Part shown: piece after piece, positions 21,190 through 37,870 of the stretch
Layout of the letters: the number at the start of each line of letters is the position of its first letter
How positions within the stretch are numbered: position 1 is the stretch's first letter
Virus record (IMG/VR): IMGVR_UViG_3300030382_003558
Span: 4,473 to 46,617 of that record
Reading direction: 5' to 3' (one strand)
Length of the DNA stretch: 42,145 nt
Source: a virus
The notes under the pieces: model-generated
What the model was told of the DNA's origin: nothing
Database searches by the model: none
Seen by the model: the letters and a program-made list of their open reading frames with translations, nothing else
Program-made: the position numbers and the translations under genes

Positions 21190-21549
21190 ATGCTCCCAGT
21201 AGAACCTAAAACATCGGCAGCACTCGATCCGCTTGTTACTACTATTGATACTAAGCAATCTGAAGAGTTGGCCGCAAGTAAACCATATTGGCAAGGGGCA
21301 AAGACCAGAGATGATAGTACTGCAAAAGTATCTGACCATGATTCATGGAAAACAAAAGGTATAGCTCTGGGAGATATCACAGAAGATGTATCTGTTCACA
21401 CTTACGATGGACCAAACGGATCAGGCTATATTATAATCATGGAGAAGCCAGTTACAGGTGGCCGATTCATCAAAAGGGTAGTCCACGGTGCTGAGCAGAG
21501 TAGAGCGCAGGACTGGACATTTACCCCCGATGATGATGGCATTACCTGA
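21190..21549 (+). CDS. Small tail-region protein
   Basis: 119 residues, MLPVEPKTSAALDPLVTTID at the start, ending in a beta-rich half (GYIIIMEKPVTGGRFIKRVV). CCCC at 21180-21183, six bases before ATG. It overlaps the LamG gene start by 14 bases. Function unknown; structural by position. Confidence 0.55.
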   Translation: MLPVEPKTSAALDPLVTTIDTKQSEELAASKPYWQGAKTRDDSTAKVSDHDSWKTKGIALGDITEDVSVHTYDGPNGSGYIIIMEKPVTGGRFIKRVVHGAEQSRAQDWTFTPDDDGIT

Positions 21550-23674
21550 TAACGGGGACTTTTCACAATCTGGCTCTATTATCTCTCGATGGAAACTCGA
21601 TGAGTCTTCTGGTACAAGAGAGGATAGTGTAGGCTCTAACGATCTAACAGATAACAATACTGTGACAGGAGCTACAGGCAAATTTGGAGTTTCTGCCTCT
21701 GCTTTTGCTAGGGCATCTACTGAATATCTTAGCATTTCAGACAACGCATCTCTTAGCCCTGTGGGGGATATATCCTACTTTGCGTGGATAAAGCCTACAA
21801 CCACACCAGATGATAATGCCTATGCTATAGCTAGTAAATATGATGACGCAGACAGGTCTTGGTACTTCGATTATAGCGAGGATGGAGGTGGTGAGAGACT
21901 CCACTTCTATGTACGAGACTCCAACGGAGACTCAACCTCTCCTGAAGTAGCAGTAACTCTAGCAAATGACACATGGCATCAAGTTGGCTTCGTTTACGAT
22001 GTTTCTGCTTTTGAGGTGAAATTTTACGTCAACGGCGTTCAGGTAGGAGCTACTGGCTCTACAGCAGGGGTAAACGACTTAAGAGACAGTGCAGGAGATT
22101 TCCGTATCGGCGCTATGGATAATGCGGGAATTGCGAATTTGTGGGATGGGCTTATGCAAGATGCTATCTTCTGGGATGTAGAGCTTACAGCAGCAGAAGT
22201 AGCTGCGAACTACAACCTATACGGTACAGGTTTACCAGCTACAGCAGCCCTTCCTCAGTCAGGCTCAATAACCGCTAGGTGGAAGCTAGATGAGCCGTCA
22301 GGTACAAGAGCAGACTCTGTAGGAAGCAATGATCTTACGGACAACAACACAGTCACAGCAGAAGGAGCACAATTCAACAATATAGCAGCAGTCTTCGAGC
22401 TTGATAATTCGGAAAACCTATCCATAGCGGATAATGCTGATATGTCCCAGACAGGAGACATGAGTTATTTTGTTTGGGTTCAGTTTGAAACTCACACAAT
22501 GGCAGATTCAAGACTGATGGATAAGCTGCTATCTGCAGGGGATCATCGGTCTTACTACTTTGCAATGACAACCAATGGTACGCAACTAAGGTATGGAAAC
22601 TACTCAAATGGTCAATCTGGATCTGACAATGATATATTAAGGAACTTTACCCCTACTGATGGGGCTTGGTATCACATGGGGTTTGTCTATGATGCGAGTG
22701 CGGGGGAGGCGAAGCTATTTATAAATGGTGCGCAGCTGGGGGCTACAGATACAGGAATGAACACAAGTGTATATGATGGCGATGCTGACTTTACGATAGG
22801 AGGAGCTTCAGCCTTCCATGACGGGCTCATGCAAGACGCAATCATGTGGGGTGCTGAACTTACAGATGCAGAGGTGGAAGACCTATACAACGCATACTTC
22901 AACCTTCCAGACGAAGGAGATTTGCCTCAGCCTGGCTCAGTCGTAGCCCGTCACACACTCACAGAGGGCGGTGGAACGAGGAATGACCAAGTGGGAACAA
23001 ACCATCTTACTGATAATAATACTGTAACCTCTACGACAGGGATTTCAGAAACTAACTCTAGTGCAGAAAGAGCAGCAGACTTTAATGATAGCAACAGCGA
23101 ATACCTCACTGTCGCAGATAACGCCAATATTTCCATAACAGGAGATATGTCTTGGTTCGCTTGGGTAAGACCTGATACAGCACTCCAAGGATCATCCGAT
23201 TCATATTTCCTAGCATCAAAATACGATCACACTCAGCGTAGTTGGTACATTGCATACGCATTGGAGGATACCAATGAACAGGTGGATGTCTATATTGCTG
23301 ATAATTTGACTGGAGATGCGAACAGCAAGAGAGAAATATGGGATGTCACCCTGGCAATAGGACAGTGGTATCACATGGGATTTGTTTATGATGCTTCGGA
23401 TGGAGAAGTTGGCTTCTATATAGACGGCGCTCAGGTTGACACTATACGAACAGGATTCGCCACAGATATTGTTGATGGAACTGCTGCTTACCGAATAGGC
23501 GCATTCTCTGGTGGAGGAGGTACAACAGGATTCTGGCCAGGGCAAGTGCAGGATGCAATCATGTGGAATGCAGAGCTAACAGGTGCAGAAGTAACAACTC
23601 TCTACGAGCTTTATACAGTAGAACCCTCTACAGGAACTCCGAGCGGATTAGCGTTACTAGGCGTAGGCAACTAA
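21536..23674 (+). CDS. Triple LamG/concanavalin-like tail protein
   Basis: 712 residues built of three tandem jelly-roll lectin-like (LamG-type) domains of about 220-235 residues. Each starts with a related strand block: SGSIISRWKLDESSGTREDS, SGSITARWKLDEPSGTRADS and GSVVARHTLTEGGGTRNDQV, all followed by VG(S/T)N.LTDNNTVT. Each also has a W(Y/H).(M/V)GFVYD...K.Y.NG..G pattern and ends with a LWDG/WPGQ...A..W..ELT.AEV segment. Such domains bind glycans and are common in receptor-binding or adhesive phage proteins. The start at 21536 is preferred because CCCCC lies seven bases upstream. Confidence 0.85.
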   Translation: MALPDNGDFSQSGSIISRWKLDESSGTREDSVGSNDLTDNNTVTGATGKFGVSASAFARASTEYLSISDNASLSPVGDISYFAWIKPTTTPDDNAYAIASKYDDADRSWYFDYSEDGGGERLHFYVRDSNGDSTSPEVAVTLANDTWHQVGFVYDVSAFEVKFYVNGVQVGATGSTAGVNDLRDSAGDFRIGAMDNAGIANLWDGLMQDAIFWDVELTAAEVAANYNLYGTGLPATAALPQSGSITARWKLDEPSGTRADSVGSNDLTDNNTVTAEGAQFNNIAAVFELDNSENLSIADNADMSQTGDMSYFVWVQFETHTMADSRLMDKLLSAGDHRSYYFAMTTNGTQLRYGNYSNGQSGSDNDILRNFTPTDGAWYHMGFVYDASAGEAKLFINGAQLGATDTGMNTSVYDGDADFTIGGASAFHDGLMQDAIMWGAELTDAEVEDLYNAYFNLPDEGDLPQPGSVVARHTLTEGGGTRNDQVGTNHLTDNNTVTSTTGISETNSSAERAADFNDSNSEYLTVADNANISITGDMSWFAWVRPDTALQGSSDSYFLASKYDHTQRSWYIAYALEDTNEQVDVYIADNLTGDANSKREIWDVTLAIGQWYHMGFVYDASDGEVGFYIDGAQVDTIRTGFATDIVDGTAAYRIGAFSGGGGTTGFWPGQVQDAIMWNAELTGAEVTTLYELYTVEPSTGTPSGLALLGVGN

Positions 23675-27624: not shown

Positions 27625-28184
27625 ACCCTAGATTCAGCAAGTGGACAGAAGACAACGTGGCAATCTGCAGATACCTGCATGAGAATGCGAGGGAGGTTTT
27701 TCTAGAGCTTGTACTGCGGATAGCAGAGCAGGGGATATATATACGACTTACGAGTGGTCACAGGACTGCAGAGGAGCAAAAGAAAGAGTACGATGAAGGA
27801 GACTCATGGGTGCTATGCCCTGATTCCTATCATTGTCACGGTTTAGCCGTAGACATAGTTCCTATGGAGAGGGTAAGCGATCTTCTGTACAGAGCTATTT
27901 GGGGCAAGGATGCGTGGGAAAGAGGTGTGTATGAGAAGATGGCTAAGGTAGCGTATAAGCTGGGGATAGCATGGGGATACCAAGAGTGGGGAGTGGATCG
28001 AGGGCATTTCCACTATCGAGACAACAAAACCATCTACCAGATAGCGGAGGGCAATTTTCCTAAAAAGCCTGAGATAGCTCAAATTCCTTACCATAGGGAA
28101 ACGAGAAGAGTAATAGATAGACTTCAGAATCGTGATATAATCACTCCTGTTTTATTCCCGTACCTTTATGTTAAAAGCAGGTAG
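27621..28184 (+). CDS. Endolysin, M15-type D,D- or L,D-peptidase
   Basis: 187 residues. The zinc-peptidase motif S-x-H-x(2)-G-x-A-x-D is at 69-78 (SYHCHGLAVD, zinc ligands H71 and D78), with the second motif DRGHFHY at 126-132 supplying the third histidine. LTSGHRTAEEQ at 43-53 is the usual upstream strand with a catalytic-site arginine. M15 endolysins cleave peptidoglycan stem peptides. No signal sequence, so release needs the holin. A cell-wall-binding domain is absent, consistent with a Gram-negative type host, though not proof. Confidence 0.88.
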   Translation: MNPRFSKWTEDNVAICRYLHENAREVFLELVLRIAEQGIYIRLTSGHRTAEEQKKEYDEGDSWVLCPDSYHCHGLAVDIVPMERVSDLLYRAIWGKDAWERGVYEKMAKVAYKLGIAWGYQEWGVDRGHFHYRDNKTIYQIAEGNFPKKPEIAQIPYHRETRRVIDRLQNRDIITPVLFPYLYVKSR

Positions 28185-28653
28185 ACCAAAAAAACATGGG
28201 ATGTCTAAGTCTAAAGAATACAAAACTTGGACTTGTATGAAGCAGCGATGTTATGACAAAAGCCATATTTCATATCCATATTATGGAAAAGTAGGAATAA
28301 GAGTCTGTGAGAGATGGAAAAGCTCGTTTCAAAGATTTTATGAGGATATGGGTGATAGACCACCCAATAAAACATTGGATAGAATTAATCCCACAGATGA
28401 TTATTATCCTGATAACTGCAGATGGGCTACTCAATCTGTACAAGTCCATAACCAAAAAAAGGGTAATGGTAGGCTGTCTAAATACAAAGGTGTCACATAC
28501 CACAAAAACCATAATGTATGGCAATCGACCATTACAAAGAATTATAAAAATATGTACCTTGGTTCATTTTCTTCAGAAGAAGATGCAGCAATTGCTTATA
28601 ATGTAGCTGCACAATTATTCCATGGAGACTTAGCCAACCTTAACCCTGTCTAA
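28168..28653 (+). CDS. HNH homing endonuclease with AP2 domain, within the lysis region
   Basis: 161 residues. The HNH part is the VCERW type: YYGKVGIRVCERWKSSFQRF, then LDRINPTDDYYPDNCRWATQ with an N-rich close. An AP2 domain follows (KYKGVTYHKNHNVWQSTITK, then YLGSFSSEEDAAIAYNVAAQ, ending LANLNPV). It overlaps the endolysin end by 17 bases and separates endolysin from the holin candidate. CCC at 28157-28159, eight bases before ATG. The final 25 residues are very close to those of the 3127 gene, although the two HNH parts are of different subtypes. Confidence 0.9.
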   Translation: MLKAGRPKKHGMSKSKEYKTWTCMKQRCYDKSHISYPYYGKVGIRVCERWKSSFQRFYEDMGDRPPNKTLDRINPTDDYYPDNCRWATQSVQVHNQKKGNGRLSKYKGVTYHKNHNVWQSTITKNYKNMYLGSFSSEEDAAIAYNVAAQLFHGDLANLNPV

Positions 28654-28903: not shown

Positions 28904-28913
28904 TGGAAAAATA

Positions 28914-28947
28914 AATACACCTTGTTCACGAATGAGCAGGGTGTATT
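28914..28947 (+). terminator. Long stem-loop after the holin candidate
   Basis: AATACACCTTGTTCA (28914-28928) pairs with TGAGCAGGGTGTATT (28933-28947) through 13 Watson-Crick and two G-U pairs, with loop CGAA. Downstream is ATTGTAATACTTTACT, not a clean T-run, so termination may be partial. It separates the lysis region from the following unit. Confidence 0.65.
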
Positions 28948-28979
28948 ATTGTAATACTTTACTATTACAAACGGATTAT

Positions 28980-29173
28980 ATGGGAAAATTACAAGAAGTC
29001 GAGATAGGTAAACGATCAAAGGGAAATCTATGTGTATAACCGAGTGGTCAGAAGAAACAGGGATAAATCCCACCACAATATATGGTAGGATATATAGGGG
29101 TTGGCCCCATGATAAAGCTCTTACAATTTCCCCTTCAGAATATCGCTCTTACTCCAGATCAACTAACAAGTAA
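28980..29173 (+). pseudogene. Frameshifted HTH fragment of a mobile nuclease-type gene
   Basis: Two short overlapping frames: 28980-29039 encodes MGKLQEVEIGKRSKGNLCV, and 29030-29173, in the -1 frame, encodes MCITEWSEETGINPTTIYGR continuing IYRGWPHDKALT. The second part matches the small C-terminal helix-turn-helix of phage HNH endonucleases and related proteins (TEWa.etGi...Ti..R..rGW....AL). Joined, they would form one module with no nuclease part. It is probably a decayed remnant; a short functional DNA-binding peptide is the alternative. Confidence 0.45.
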
Positions 29174-29593
29174 ATACTGGCAAGAGAAGGGCTACAAGCC
29201 CATTAAAGTAGAAAAATGGGTTCTGTATCCACAGCCGAGAAGGTCAGATTTTTTAAAAATATATTCGACTATTTATGTTTAGGACAAGGAGAAATCATCG
29301 CAGTACAAACAACATCCCTATCCAACTTCTCAGCGAGGAGGAAGAAGATGCTACGAGCAAAGGGCTTCAAATGGTGGATGGATACAAAAAATCCAGCATA
29401 CCTGCAAGTATGGTCAAAGAAATCAGGGCGCTGGGTAGACAAAACCGTAGAACTAACGTTAGAGGATTGGGAACAATTCCAGAAAGAAGAAGCAGAAGCA
29501 CTAGAAAAGGCTTCGATGCAGGATACGCCTCTGTCACGGAGCCTCTTTCCTGATGGCATCCCCGACAAAATTGGCAAGAAGAATGATTCGTAG
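29109..29593 (+). CDS. Nuclease-like protein made by -1 frameshift (or broken by an indel)
   Basis: Two frames overlap. The first, from ATG at 29109, reads MIKLLQFPLQNIALTPDQLT, then KYWQEKGY...VEKWVLYPQPRRSDFL and stops at 29280-29282. The -1 frame continues FFKNIFDYLCLGQGEIIAVQ then TTSLSNFSARRKKML and ends at 29593. Joined at the T-run they give about 161 residues matching a phage protein pattern, R.D(L/I)FG.(I/L)D.L.L..GE..AVQ.TS.SN.S.R..K, which resembles PD-(D/E)XK-type nucleases with Q in place of the usual E-x-K glutamate. The junction TTTTTTA (29249-29255), read T-TTT-TTA in the first frame, is a classical -1 slippery heptamer. Sequencing error or pseudogene are alternatives. Confidence 0.55.
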
Positions 29594-29625: not shown

Positions 29626-30588
29626 ATGCCACAAACTACTGATCGTTTCACCAGCAAAACGAGCGAGGTTAGAATGACCAACGCACAAAAGGGAAAGGCT
29701 CTATTGGCTAAAATGAAGATAGATCTATTTAACGAAGGAAACGCCTCTACACTAGCGCACGACAGGAGAGCGAGATTCATAACCCCAGAGGATATGGGCA
29801 ACTTCCGTGAGGCTCAGACTAACAAATCTATCCTTGGCCGTAGAGGAGGAGCAGTGATAGGGAAGATGACTACTCCGGGTGGAACATTCCCAGCTATCCC
29901 TACGGTAGCCATGAGAGAGAGCCTACGTGTTACAAAGCGTAACCTAGAGCGATTCCGTAGCCCAGAGGTAGCAGCGAAGGAGGATCAGCTACGTGGACTC
30001 TTCACCAAGTTCACAAATGCCAGAGAGACAGCTGTTACTAGACTACGAGCGCTATCTCCAGAGCTATTTAGGAGTAGGCAAGACATACGTGCAGAGCAGG
30101 AGTTAGCACAGCAGAAGCAGGGCTTACGCAGGGGATTCGCCTCTAGCCGTACACAACAAATACTAGATGCACAGAGTAGTGTACGTGGAGGAAGAATCTT
30201 TGAACACCAGAGAGATATAGAAGCTGGTATAGAGAAGGATATTAACCTGCTACACGGAGACACTATTCGAGCTAGAAAGAGGGAAAGAGCTAGAATGCTC
30301 AAGGTAAGAGACTTAGAAGCTGTAGAGGGTACAAGTGGTACTACGCCACTTACTGTAAAGTTTGGTCGAGGTCGTAAGGAGGTGGTTGCAGCTACAGGGG
30401 ATCCTACGATCCTTCAGGGTATAACACCTGAGATCCTAGATGCACAGAACCTAGAGAGTGGAACAATAGGAAAACGTGCTGCTGCTACATCTAGTAACAT
30501 CTCTGATCTAAGCAAGAAGGTAAACGAGACTCGTTTAGCTACAGCAAGGCAGAGACTAAAGCGTACACGTGACTCCTCCGCAGAATAA
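29626..30588 (+). CDS. Internal virion / ejection protein candidate
   Basis: 320 residues, basic and largely helical (TVAMRESLRVTKRNLERFRS; ELAQQKQGLRRGFASSRTQQ). It begins MPQTTDRFTSKTSEVRM, related to the start of the next gene (MPQITDRFKGAST), which suggests a common signal for incorporation into the head or a shared origin. It is the first of four consecutive genes whose overlaps (TAATG) and position before the end of the structural block suit ejection proteins. No enzymatic motif seen. Confidence 0.55.
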   Translation: MPQTTDRFTSKTSEVRMTNAQKGKALLAKMKIDLFNEGNASTLAHDRRARFITPEDMGNFREAQTNKSILGRRGGAVIGKMTTPGGTFPAIPTVAMRESLRVTKRNLERFRSPEVAAKEDQLRGLFTKFTNARETAVTRLRALSPELFRSRQDIRAEQELAQQKQGLRRGFASSRTQQILDAQSSVRGGRIFEHQRDIEAGIEKDINLLHGDTIRARKRERARMLKVRDLEAVEGTSGTTPLTVKFGRGRKEVVAATGDPTILQGITPEILDAQNLESGTIGKRAAATSSNISDLSKKVNETRLATARQRLKRTRDSSAE

Positions 30589-32899: not shown

Positions 32900-35800
32900 A
32901 TGGCTACCTTCGATCCCACCCAAGGCCAGTCATCCGGGCAGGGCAATGTCCTAGAGGGTATTCTGGAACCTGAACGGCCACCACAAGATCCTGTAATTGG
33001 ATATAAACCAAGGAATACTACCGTCATGGAAGATCTTGGACTATCCCCTGAACAGCTAACACAGCCGGGACAGCAGGATGCTGTAACACCAGAAGGACAG
33101 GGTATACAACGTAGGGTAGCAAAAAGAAGAAATGTACGTGTTCTCGAAGGGTTGTTAGGTGAAGGTACGCCACAGGTTCAGAAGCGCAAGAGGGAGAGGC
33201 TAGGAATATCTGAAACAATAGACCTTAAGAATATCCCCGGCATAGAGTCTGGAGGATCTATGAAGATCGCTCAGGCCATTAAGTCACACCTAGACACTCT
33301 TCCCAGCTACGCACAGCGTATAACAGGTTTAGAGGAGTCTGTATTACTATCATCCTCTAGGGCAAGCAGAATGGCTGACAGGTTCCATGAGATTGCCAAG
33401 GGGTACGAGGTAGAAACGAAGAAACTCAAAAACCTTGGAGTTGGTAAGAATGAAGGGCTGAAGCCAAGAAGAGATAAATTCCTTGCTAAGACTGAAGAGG
33501 GAGACTTCAGATTCGGACCCAAGAAGCCAAAGATATCAGAAGTGTTTAATGACATTGCTGATACATACGAAGAAGAGGGAGAGGAAGGAGAGCTGCCAAG
33601 CATTTTGTTTGGTCCAGTAGACATATTTGAGGATGCGCCAGAACCAGATACAGACCTCATACGACTTACTAAGTCTGCAACCGGAGGAGCGCTAGGTAGC
33701 GGTATTTCAACGCTACGTGGACTGGAGGCTCTTACTGGCCGTACAATCTTTGGAAACGATGCTCCAATTTTAGATATACAGAAAGCACTAGAGGTAGAGA
33801 ATCCTGTATTCCTAGACAAACTAGCATCTGGATTTGGTTCAACCCTTACGTTCTTCATACCGGGTGCAGGAGTAGCAAAGGGCGTATCTGCATTGTCAAA
33901 AGGCAGTAAGGTTATCTCATTTATATCTGCAGCTGCAGGTGTAGGAACTATGTCTGGAATTGAGGCATTGGCAGAGTCAGGAGAGATATACGAACAAGCA
34001 ATAGCTAAGGGGTACACAAAAAAGGAAGCAGCTGCACTAGCTAATCACGGAGCTGCACTAAACCTTATAACACTCATCCTCACGAACTCTGTTTTTCCTG
34101 CAGCCAAAGGTGGGGCGATAAAGAGGATGCTTGCTACTGCACCATCTGAAGGAATACAGGAGGCTGTACAGACGATGATTTCTAATTATGAGCTAGGCGC
34201 ACGTGACCTTGCATCAATTACAGAAGGAGCATTTGAATCCTTTGTTATAGGAGGAATCGTTGGTGGAATAATCGGAGGAGCTACTGATGGCTTTGATGTT
34301 CGTCAAGGCGGTAAAAGTACAGTAGACCCAGACTATATGAGCATCCTAGAGCAGAGAGCGCAGAGGGATGGCATCATCGGAGAAAGAAGAGTGCTATACC
34401 TAAAGCCTAGAGATAAGAAGGGTGGACCAGAACGCAAGAAGGAAAAAGAGCTTCAATTCACCGGACCAGAAGACATCACCCCACAGGAGGCACGTGCTGA
34501 GATTGAGTCTCTTATAGACCAGCAAAAAGAAATAGATGCAGCAGGAAGAGAGGCAGAAGCCCTAGACCCTGCTACAGCGAATGCTAGAAATTTGGCTAAT
34601 GAAGCAGTAAGAGTTGTTGGTAGTCCTGTAACGAAGGGGATCATACAAAAGCTCACAAAAAAGGCTGGGTTCGCTGGAATACAAGAGCTAACGCCAAGCG
34701 AGTTTAACAGCCTAATAAGAGAAGCCAGAGAACAGTCACCATCTACCGCTGCCACAGATATATTCAACGATATCCTTGCAGCCTCACAGGAGGTAACAGA
34801 GGAGGCAGATCCATCCGTATTCCAAGATGAGATAGCTTCTCTCGTACAAGAAAGAAGAACGCCAACAAGAAAGACACGTACAGTAGATGAGCTTATACAA
34901 GAGTTTGAGGGATTGCAGTTCCAAGACAGAGAGGTTGGCAAGGGTGGCCTTACAGGTCAGGATCTTATAAATACTCTCACTAGGCCAGCGCCAAAAGCGC
35001 AGAAGATAGAGAAAGTGAAGGACATCAAGCCTATAGACCTAATCCTATCTACAGCAGACATAGCTGCAAATGATCGCTTCATTGAAAGACTCACACAGGC
35101 AACACAAGACAAATCTGAGTCAAGCAAACCAATGACACGTGCAGAGTTCAGGAAGGCTCAGTTTGAAGCAGAGGCTCTACCACCCAGCGACATAAAGAAT
35201 AAAGCGCTTAAGATGCTCAAGGATGAACAGAAGAGGATGGGTACGAAGGAACAGAAGCTGGGAAGAGAGCTTGCTATAGAGAAGAAGAAAACTAGGCAGC
35301 TTGCACAGCAGAAGAAGGCTCTAGAGCGAACCATTCAGAAGGGTAAGCATGAGAAGACCGTACAAAAGATAAGCAAGGCGATACGTTCCACATCACTCTC
35401 TGCCGAGACTACCGCAAAGCTAGAACCAGTAACACGGTCTATAAAACTTCGCACACGACCAATAAAAGGATTAGCTAAGCTGATAAAGGAGGCAAAAGAG
35501 AAGTTCGACAATAACGACATGCTTCCATCGGATGTAATGGATACTGTTGCGGAAATGGAAGGCAAGACCATGAGCGAACTATCAGAGATCGACTTGGATC
35601 TACTTCTCTCTGCAGTAAAGAATATTATTCATCTAAGTGACATGCAGAATAAGGTTTTTATAGACGGTCAGATAAAGACCAGAGAGGAAACCGTGAAAGA
35701 GATAGTAAAAGATATTAAGAATCGCAAGGGGAAGAACAATGACGGTGATATCTCAGAGAAAGACGTAGCTGCCTTTGAAGCGGAGTTTATTGCACGATCA

Positions 35801-37870
35801 GATTTCATACCGAAGAAGCAAAGAGCTGGCAAGGTAAAGAAGTTTGTAGTAGCCTCCTTGCCACATCCTGTAAAAGCGTTTCAAATGGATGGTGGTAAAG
35901 AAGGTGGTGTCCATGTAAAAATCTTTGAGAAACAGCTAAACCAATCTCGATCAGATGCCCTTGAGCATACCCAAAAACGTGATGACTTCTTCAGGAATAG
36001 GATAAAGGATATAGACTTTGGCAATGGAAAAGACTGGAGTGATTACCTAACAAAAAAAGCAACACTACTAAGGCGACTCGCTAACAGGCTTAAGAACACA
36101 CCAGAGCAAAGAAGAAGCGCCAAAAGATACAAGATGAATCTATCTAGTGGTCAAGAGATAGGCATCACAAGAGGTGAAAAAATTTCCATGTATCTAACGT
36201 CAAAGAGGGAAGCAGGGCTGAAGCACCTTGTCTCTGGAGGCTTCTCATTCGAGACATCGAAGACGAAGATATACCAGTTCTCGATGCAAGACGTAAAGAA
36301 TCTACAACAGTCAATGACCAAGGATGAACTTACGGTAGCAAGAGCTATGAGAGACTTCCTTAATGGTCTACAGAAGGATGCCACAAACAAAATATCAATG
36401 GATCTTAATGGCGTAGCAGTACTACTAGAAGACAACTACTGGAGGATACACGTAAACGAGATAACACTAGACAAGAAACTTCAACCAAAAATAATACAGG
36501 TTCGCAAAACAATAGAGGGAATGGGAATGTTGCAGAAACTGGTAGACTCAGAAAATCCTATCATCATACATGATGCCTTCTCTGATTTTCAAGGGCAGAC
36601 AAGAGCAATGGCTGGATACATAGGTTTTGCAAAAACAATCCGAACAGGAAATCTTATTCTAAACGACCCCTTGTATCAAACAGTAATGACCGAGGAGGGA
36701 TTTGGTCTTCACATGAAGTCTATGCAAAAACTCATGGATGCACTGAACGGAGACTACTCCATGAGAACTGATGCAGAATCGGTACTCCTCAACCTACACG
36801 GAAAGGCTAAAAGTTCCAAGATCGTCATAAATCCGTTTACATGGATGAAGCAAGCTGTATCTGTAGTACTGGCTATACCAGAGATAGGCGCAAAGAACAT
36901 GGGTAAAGGAAGCTCTAAGGTAATAGGAAAGAAGACCTTTGCGAAAATGTACAAGTATTCAGCGGTGTTTAGGAATCGAATGGAGGGGTTCATAGGCCGT
37001 GAGCTTGGTGAACTATCCGCAGGTGGCGAGACAAGGCGTATGACAACAGGAGAGAAAGACTTGCAGCAAAAGATAGGTAAAGGAATCCAAACCTTCGATA
37101 TGCAGGCCATCGGAAGGATATGGGAAGGTGCAGAGGCCAAAGTAAAATCCGAGAAGCCAGATCTTACAGGCGACAAATTCTATCACGAAGTAGCAAAAGT
37201 CGCTGAGCAGGTAGTATCAAGAACACAGCCAACCTACTTCATAGAATCACGGTCCGACATAGGGATGATTAAAACTATATGGGTAAGAGAGCTTACAGCC
37301 TTCTCCTCCCAAACCAACAAGATATTTGGAATGGTATCCAGAGCCAGTACGAAGTACGCAAACAGCAATAAGACCGCTGCAGACAAGGCAGAGTATATGA
37401 CTGTTATATACGCTGTACTGATAAATGCTGCACTGGTCACTGGAATAGATGAGGGCCGTAAGGCATGGAGAAGACAAGAACACTCAGTCCTAACAACCTT
37501 CATTCAAAACACCTTCGGAGTTATCTACGGAGTACCAACCTTCCTTGGCGCAATCATTAGCAAACTAAAGAGAGGCACATACGCAGGATTCAGAGTATCC
37601 ACCCCCTCAATCCAAACACTTGACAATGCTGTAAATGGAGCAGTTGAAACTGTCCTTGGAGTAAAAGCTCTTGTATATGATGAGCAGTATGAAGGAGGAA
37701 AAAGAATAGGAGAAGATAAATGGAAAACTGAACTTCCAAAGGGTCTAATAAAGCTGGCAGATGGCATCACATCCATTCGATATGGTGTACCAGTAAAAAC
37801 GCCACTAAAAGATGCTGCACTACTCCTTGATAGAGTCGATCAATTATTTAAGGCTTCGGTGGGGAAGTAG
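32900..37870 (+). CDS. Giant internal (DNA-ejection) protein
   Basis: 1656 residues. Roughly: a charged N-terminus to 250; a hydrophobic/glycine-rich region at about 254-460 (TKSATGGALGSGISTLRGLE; LTFFIPGAGVAKGVSALSKG; FVIGGIVGGIIGG) that could insert in membranes; helical, charged segments to about 1000; a mixed domain at 1040-1300 (SDYLTKKATLLRRLANRLKN onward); and a C-terminal region with a hydrophobic helix near 1504 (YAVLINAALVTG). This length, composition and place match the largest ejection proteins of short-tailed phages (role of T7 gp16) and 'large polyvalent' phage proteins, which form a conduit across the envelope. I see no transglycosylase motif in it. The end overlaps the convergent glycosyltransferase by 23 bases. 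Confidence 0.7.
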   Translation: MATFDPTQGQSSGQGNVLEGILEPERPPQDPVIGYKPRNTTVMEDLGLSPEQLTQPGQQDAVTPEGQGIQRRVAKRRNVRVLEGLLGEGTPQVQKRKRERLGISETIDLKNIPGIESGGSMKIAQAIKSHLDTLPSYAQRITGLEESVLLSSSRASRMADRFHEIAKGYEVETKKLKNLGVGKNEGLKPRRDKFLAKTEEGDFRFGPKKPKISEVFNDIADTYEEEGEEGELPSILFGPVDIFEDAPEPDTDLIRLTKSATGGALGSGISTLRGLEALTGRTIFGNDAPILDIQKALEVENPVFLDKLASGFGSTLTFFIPGAGVAKGVSALSKGSKVISFISAAAGVGTMSGIEALAESGEIYEQAIAKGYTKKEAAALANHGAALNLITLILTNSVFPAAKGGAIKRMLATAPSEGIQEAVQTMISNYELGARDLASITEGAFESFVIGGIVGGIIGGATDGFDVRQGGKSTVDPDYMSILEQRAQRDGIIGERRVLYLKPRDKKGGPERKKEKELQFTGPEDITPQEARAEIESLIDQQKEIDAAGREAEALDPATANARNLANEAVRVVGSPVTKGIIQKLTKKAGFAGIQELTPSEFNSLIREAREQSPSTAATDIFNDILAASQEVTEEADPSVFQDEIASLVQERRTPTRKTRTVDELIQEFEGLQFQDREVGKGGLTGQDLINTLTRPAPKAQKIEKVKDIKPIDLILSTADIAANDRFIERLTQATQDKSESSKPMTRAEFRKAQFEAEALPPSDIKNKALKMLKDEQKRMGTKEQKLGRELAIEKKKTRQLAQQKKALERTIQKGKHEKTVQKISKAIRSTSLSAETTAKLEPVTRSIKLRTRPIKGLAKLIKEAKEKFDNNDMLPSDVMDTVAEMEGKTMSELSEIDLDLLLSAVKNIIHLSDMQNKVFIDGQIKTREETVKEIVKDIKNRKGKNNDGDISEKDVAAFEAEFIARSDFIPKKQRAGKVKKFVVASLPHPVKAFQMDGGKEGGVHVKIFEKQLNQSRSDALEHTQKRDDFFRNRIKDIDFGNGKDWSDYLTKKATLLRRLANRLKNTPEQRRSAKRYKMNLSSGQEIGITRGEKISMYLTSKREAGLKHLVSGGFSFETSKTKIYQFSMQDVKNLQQSMTKDELTVARAMRDFLNGLQKDATNKISMDLNGVAVLLEDNYWRIHVNEITLDKKLQPKIIQVRKTIEGMGMLQKLVDSENPIIIHDAFSDFQGQTRAMAGYIGFAKTIRTGNLILNDPLYQTVMTEEGFGLHMKSMQKLMDALNGDYSMRTDAESVLLNLHGKAKSSKIVINPFTWMKQAVSVVLAIPEIGAKNMGKGSSKVIGKKTFAKMYKYSAVFRNRMEGFIGRELGELSAGGETRRMTTGEKDLQQKIGKGIQTFDMQAIGRIWEGAEAKVKSEKPDLTGDKFYHEVAKVAEQVVSRTQPTYFIESRSDIGMIKTIWVRELTAFSSQTNKIFGMVSRASTKYANSNKTAADKAEYMTVIYAVLINAALVTGIDEGRKAWRRQEHSVLTTFIQNTFGVIYGVPTFLGAIISKLKRGTYAGFRVSTPSIQTLDNAVNGAVETVLGVKALVYDEQYEGGKRIGEDKWKTELPKGLIKLADGITSIRYGVPVKTPLKDAALLLDRVDQLFKASVGK

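Follow-up and report, generated by a model that had tools for sequence, protein, structure and literature searches.

A predicted Hjc-like nuclease gene of a phage is divided between two reading frames, probably by an ordinary indel

Programmed -1 ribosomal frameshifting uses X_XXY_YYZ slippery sites, such as those of HIV-1 gag-pol, dnaX, and the phage tail assembly chaperones. The locus described here lies in a 42,145-nucleotide stretch of DNA (the window), which comprises bases 4473-46617 of a 47,712-base IMG/VR virus record (IMGVR_UViG_3300030382_003558). It shares with these sites a zero-frame heptamer and a -1-frame continuation; in contrast to them, its heptamer is unconserved and no downstream structure was found. 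At the protein level, the closest described sequences are the uncharacterised proteins PBR31 gp7 (Xanthomonas phage), CUB19 gp61 (Stenotrophomonas phage), Venkman gp35 (Methylophilales phage), and that of Podoviridae ctMEh928, which belong to the same family and contain the whole domain. These proteins share the invariant E, D, D, Q, T, K, and W residues with the window at about 30% identity, but each is encoded by one unbroken frame of ~105 codons without a slippery heptamer. The archaeal Hjc proteins (PDB 1gef, 2wcw, and 1ob8) have a similar size and share the fold predicted for an intact relative, whereas the family is only 11-20% identical to them and carries Q-x-T at the positions assigned to ExK, the likeness being one of predicted fold.

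One gene in two reading frames

The zero-frame ORF (29082-29282, + strand) stops at the TAG at 29280-29282. Upstream of this stop, the heptamer T_TTT_TTA was present in the zero frame at 29249-29255 (+), as the initial annotation had reported, within a T6 A5 run that is followed by TATATT. Sequence inspection indicated that translation of this frame likely starts at ATG 29109, ahead of which AGGGG is found at 29096-29100, whereas no Shine-Dalgarno sequence precedes the in-frame ATG at 29082; the zero-frame piece thus spans 29109-29282. The open stretch of the -1 frame begins at 29207 and reaches its stop at 29593 (+). An ATG of its own at 29216 precedes the heptamer, which results in a 67-base overlap of the two ORFs.

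A family profile was built from 102 distinct relatives, with the window sequence excluded, and was searched against the 889 stop-to-stop six-frame segments of the window. The -1 frame scored 49.7 bits (E 1.2e-14) and the zero frame 16.2 bits (E 3e-4), and the next segment reached 3.3 bits. The joined protein scored 72-77 bits. Since the profile scores each frame separately and the joined protein higher, the two frames are, judged from the sequence, one gene in two pieces and not a chance arrangement. This agrees with the earlier proposal that the -1 frame continues the same protein, and the joined frames read SDF(L/F)KNIFDYLCLGQGEIIAVQ at the junction, as had been stated.

With the -1 frame as the query, tblastn retrieved ~105-residue proteins from phages of Xanthomonas, Stenotrophomonas, and Methylophilales and from two spring-water podoviruses. 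The translated phage relatives were single proteins whose N-terminal third resembles the zero frame and whose remainder resembles the -1 frame; in the window, the former is the N-terminal third and the latter the C-terminal two thirds of an Hjc-like family protein. The family homology of the -1-frame piece covers about 29261-29500, after which roughly 30-40 further residues extend the C terminus. A codon-bias model also changed its favoured frame from +0 to +2 near the junction. All seven invariant residues (E, D, D, Q, T, K, and W) were retained in the window across both frames, and because they all remain, the sequence suggests that the frame break is recent.

In-frame X_XXY_YYZ sites occurred 31 times in the 11,695 codons of the window's likely genes, corresponding to 0.07 expected per 26-codon overlap. 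The heptamer alone is less remarkable than the two-frame family match.

Distant relatives and a predicted Hjc-like fold

Two wider scans of viral contigs yielded at least 145 more loci, and 151 loci were among the matches listed. The relatives are distant, their identity to the window over the alignment being at most 38%. One locus was cut by a contig end; the other relatives span the junction, and all of them (150/150) run through it in one uninterrupted frame. Among 600 pattern-matching stretches of IMG/VR, at least 544 were confirmed as family members. The probe alignment A4, used only for widening the search pattern, contained hand-edited short rows: row 2 was ctMEh928 with one letter changed, and row 3 was a consensus written by hand. 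The joined-frame rows were typed by hand and served only as search queries. The narrower family scans, performed with the ctMEh928 protein and with a two-row alignment, gave no matches, and the Hjc-like family was found neither in genome contigs nor in plasmids.

In annotated phages, the family gene is located close to genes for NinB, a DNA methyltransferase, or antitermination protein Q. In ctXG6705 (L005:2884-3195) the gene is present and unannotated, and in phage Kintu (L003) its annotated start appears to be too far downstream.

Comparing family members with Pfam, PHROGs, and NCBIfam gave no significant match. An AlphaFold model was made for an intact relative (L114) from an alignment of 27 relatives, and its mean pLDDT was 96.9. 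In the structural alignment (VIA-align), the model matched the Hjc family members 1gef (Z 8.1), 1ob8 (Z 8.0), and 2wcw (Z 7.7) over 84-85 residues, covering the whole domain, and Foldseek gave 1gef a probability of 1.00, with a best E of 1.9e-3. Further matches were tRNA-splicing endonuclease domains and the VRR_NUC domain 4qbn (Z 7.2). Overall, the alignments with Hjc, VRR_NUC, and tRNA-splicing endonuclease chains covered 81-90 residues at Z 7-8.5, where the tool's own yardstick rates a Z of ~8 as no more than suggestive and allows that it may reflect just a common arrangement. The structural matches were mostly PD-(D/E)XK and related nuclease folds, and those from viruses included annotated Holliday junction resolvases and VRR-NUC proteins. 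The model therefore predicts a PD-(D/E)XK fold for the family, most like that of the archaeal Hjc Holliday junction resolvases, in line with the initial description of the gene as nuclease-like. The family motif comprises an invariant D-x5-D, an invariant Q-x-T, and an invariant K 13 residues past the Q. With Q-x-T in the place assigned to the E-x-K motif, a textbook catalytic mechanism is not assured for the modelled domain.

Setting of the gene in the virus record

The window encodes a terminase, a portal protein, and a major head protein. Just upstream of the split gene lie the genes for an M15 endolysin, an HNH-AP2 endonuclease, and a holin. Between the holin and the Hjc-like gene, a C-terminal remnant of an HNH homing endonuclease was detected at 29030-29173 (+), of which residues 1-40 only matched phrog_3377 (E 8.5e-8) and phrog_1065 (E 3.6e-6). 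This remnant overlaps the 5' end of the Hjc-like gene and ends where the Hjc-like homology starts, which suggests a local rearrangement. No second, intact copy of the Hjc-like gene was found within the same virus record. Close relatives of this phage were found neither in the IMG/VR viral contigs (queried with the split gene, the next gene at 29626-30588, the terminase, and the capsid protein) nor in phage records (queried with the portal, capsid, and 1656-aa proteins), although the searched collections may leave out records that lie very close to that of the window.

Several other features of the window were observed. The HNH-AP2 endonuclease gene (28168-28653, +), between the endolysin and the holin, is apparently intact and has about 70-73% DNA identity to Staphylococcus phage HNH genes over roughly 160-185 bases. 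An inverted repeat, AATACACC...GGTGTATT (28913-28950, +), is followed by a short T-rich stretch 3' of the holin; it was spotted by eye, is absent from the list of the terminator scan, and is possibly a transcription terminator. A 728-aa protein (21488-23674, +) has three Laminin_G_3 (concanavalin A-like) matches, from which it is possibly a tail or receptor-binding protein. A 1656-aa protein (32900-37870, +) matched phrog_28077 (E 4e-85), whose function is unknown, and had a single weak match among phage records.

Explanations for the frame break

We consider one gene interrupted by an ordinary indel, either a genuine mutation or an assembly or sequencing error, to be the best explanation, with a probability of about 90%. 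A recent indel near 29247-29267, at or by the low-complexity stretch TTTTTTAAAAATATATT, would have broken the frame; as written, the zero frame would then give a fragment ending before the second invariant Asp, and the whole domain would not be made. The unbroken relatives, the unconserved heptamer, and the retained invariant residues all favour this reading. Against it, the heptamer coincides with the junction defined by homology, and the relatives are too distant to test the site in this lineage. In a published survey of prokaryotes, pseudogene clusters outnumbered recoding clusters by 4010 to 146 (PMC3711429).

The spacing of the two invariant Asp residues bears on the size of the change. 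The Asp-x5-Asp spacing was present in all 102 distinct relatives. A -1 join at the heptamer gives Asp-x6-Asp, with one added residue, whereas a net +2 change keeps Asp-x5-Asp. Consistently, the best net +2 joins scored 75-77 bits against the profile compared with 71.9 (SDFLKN) and 74.7 (SDFFKN) for the -1 joins, a small gap of about 2-5 bits. A net change of +2 rather than -1 is favoured because it keeps the invariant spacing, and this sequence comparison is supporting, not decisive; in the structural model, the turn predicted between the two Asp residues could tolerate an additional residue. The initial annotation had named a single missing base in the T6/A5 run as the competing explanation, and such a loss is possible, but a net +2 fits the invariant spacing better than a single base does.

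Between the two forms of the indel, we slightly prefer a genuine mutation in the phage, at roughly even odds, over a technical error, which is somewhat less probable. This lean comes from the two-base fit, from the HNH remnant next to the gene, and from a contig that shows no other frame break, none of which is decisive. If the gene is in fact intact, an indel introduced during sequencing or assembly within its T6 A5 TATAT stretch would agree with the low-complexity run at the break and with the intact invariant residues, and for unclustered frameshifts that homologues bridge, sequencing error is the main expectation (PMC3711429). However, the spacing favours a change of two bases, a less usual homopolymer error than one of a single base. 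In addition, a frame scan across the 42 kb window revealed no other clear within-gene frame break, the switches falling at gene borders.

The initial annotation had proposed that programmed -1 ribosomal frameshifting on U_UUU_UUA produces a full-length protein from the two frames. We consider this very improbable. The proposal has in its favour a canonical heptamer in the right phase, exactly at the switch that homology requires, where only 0.07 such sites would be expected in the overlap, and the retention of the invariant residues across two frames; moreover, AAGG at 29240-29243, upstream of the heptamer, could serve as a weak internal Shine-Dalgarno sequence. However, the two-frame layout was seen in 0 of the 150 relatives that span the junction, and an in-frame X_XXY_YYZ site, sought over the stretch that begins two codons ahead of the first Asp and ends at the next invariant Asp, was present in 0 of 102 distinct relatives. 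Programmed frameshifting is thus unsupported, because the relatives found, although distant, have one unbroken frame and no slippery site. A stimulatory stem 3' of the heptamer was also sought, and the downstream RNA folded no better than shuffled sequences (z +0.3 to +1.3, with pseudoknots outside the model of the tool). Furthermore, the -1 product would disrupt the invariant Asp spacing, and the zero-frame product would by itself amount to a fragment that lacks the second Asp and has no evident use. In E. coli, according to work cited in PMC5009743, U_UUU_UUA is far less shift-prone than A_AAA_AAG.

As the comparison rests on distant relatives, a slippery site specific to this lineage keeps a small share of the probability. 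It is very doubtful that such a frameshift in an orphan podophage-like virus splits the Hjc-like domain and sets its dose. To our knowledge, there is no case of programmed -1 frameshifting in a small nuclease domain, and, if programmed frameshifting did operate here, a small phage nuclease would be an unusual place for recoding to be used.

Least probable of the readings with any remaining weight is that of two separate genes, in which the -1 ORF is translated alone, starting at ATG 29216, next to a spurious zero-frame ORF. An ATG is indeed present there in the -1 frame, but it has no Shine-Dalgarno sequence ahead, and its product would lack the invariant Glu and the first Asp. The N-terminal part of the family is also recognisable in the zero frame (E 3e-4), and joining the frames adds about 25 bits. 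Transcriptional slippage was rejected, since it usually needs longer runs than T6.

The case shows that, as evidence for recoding, a canonical slippery heptamer at the site of a frame break is weak when it is not conserved. The value of the case lies in the family itself, which is widespread in phages, has a predicted Hjc-like fold, and is unnamed in all three family libraries.
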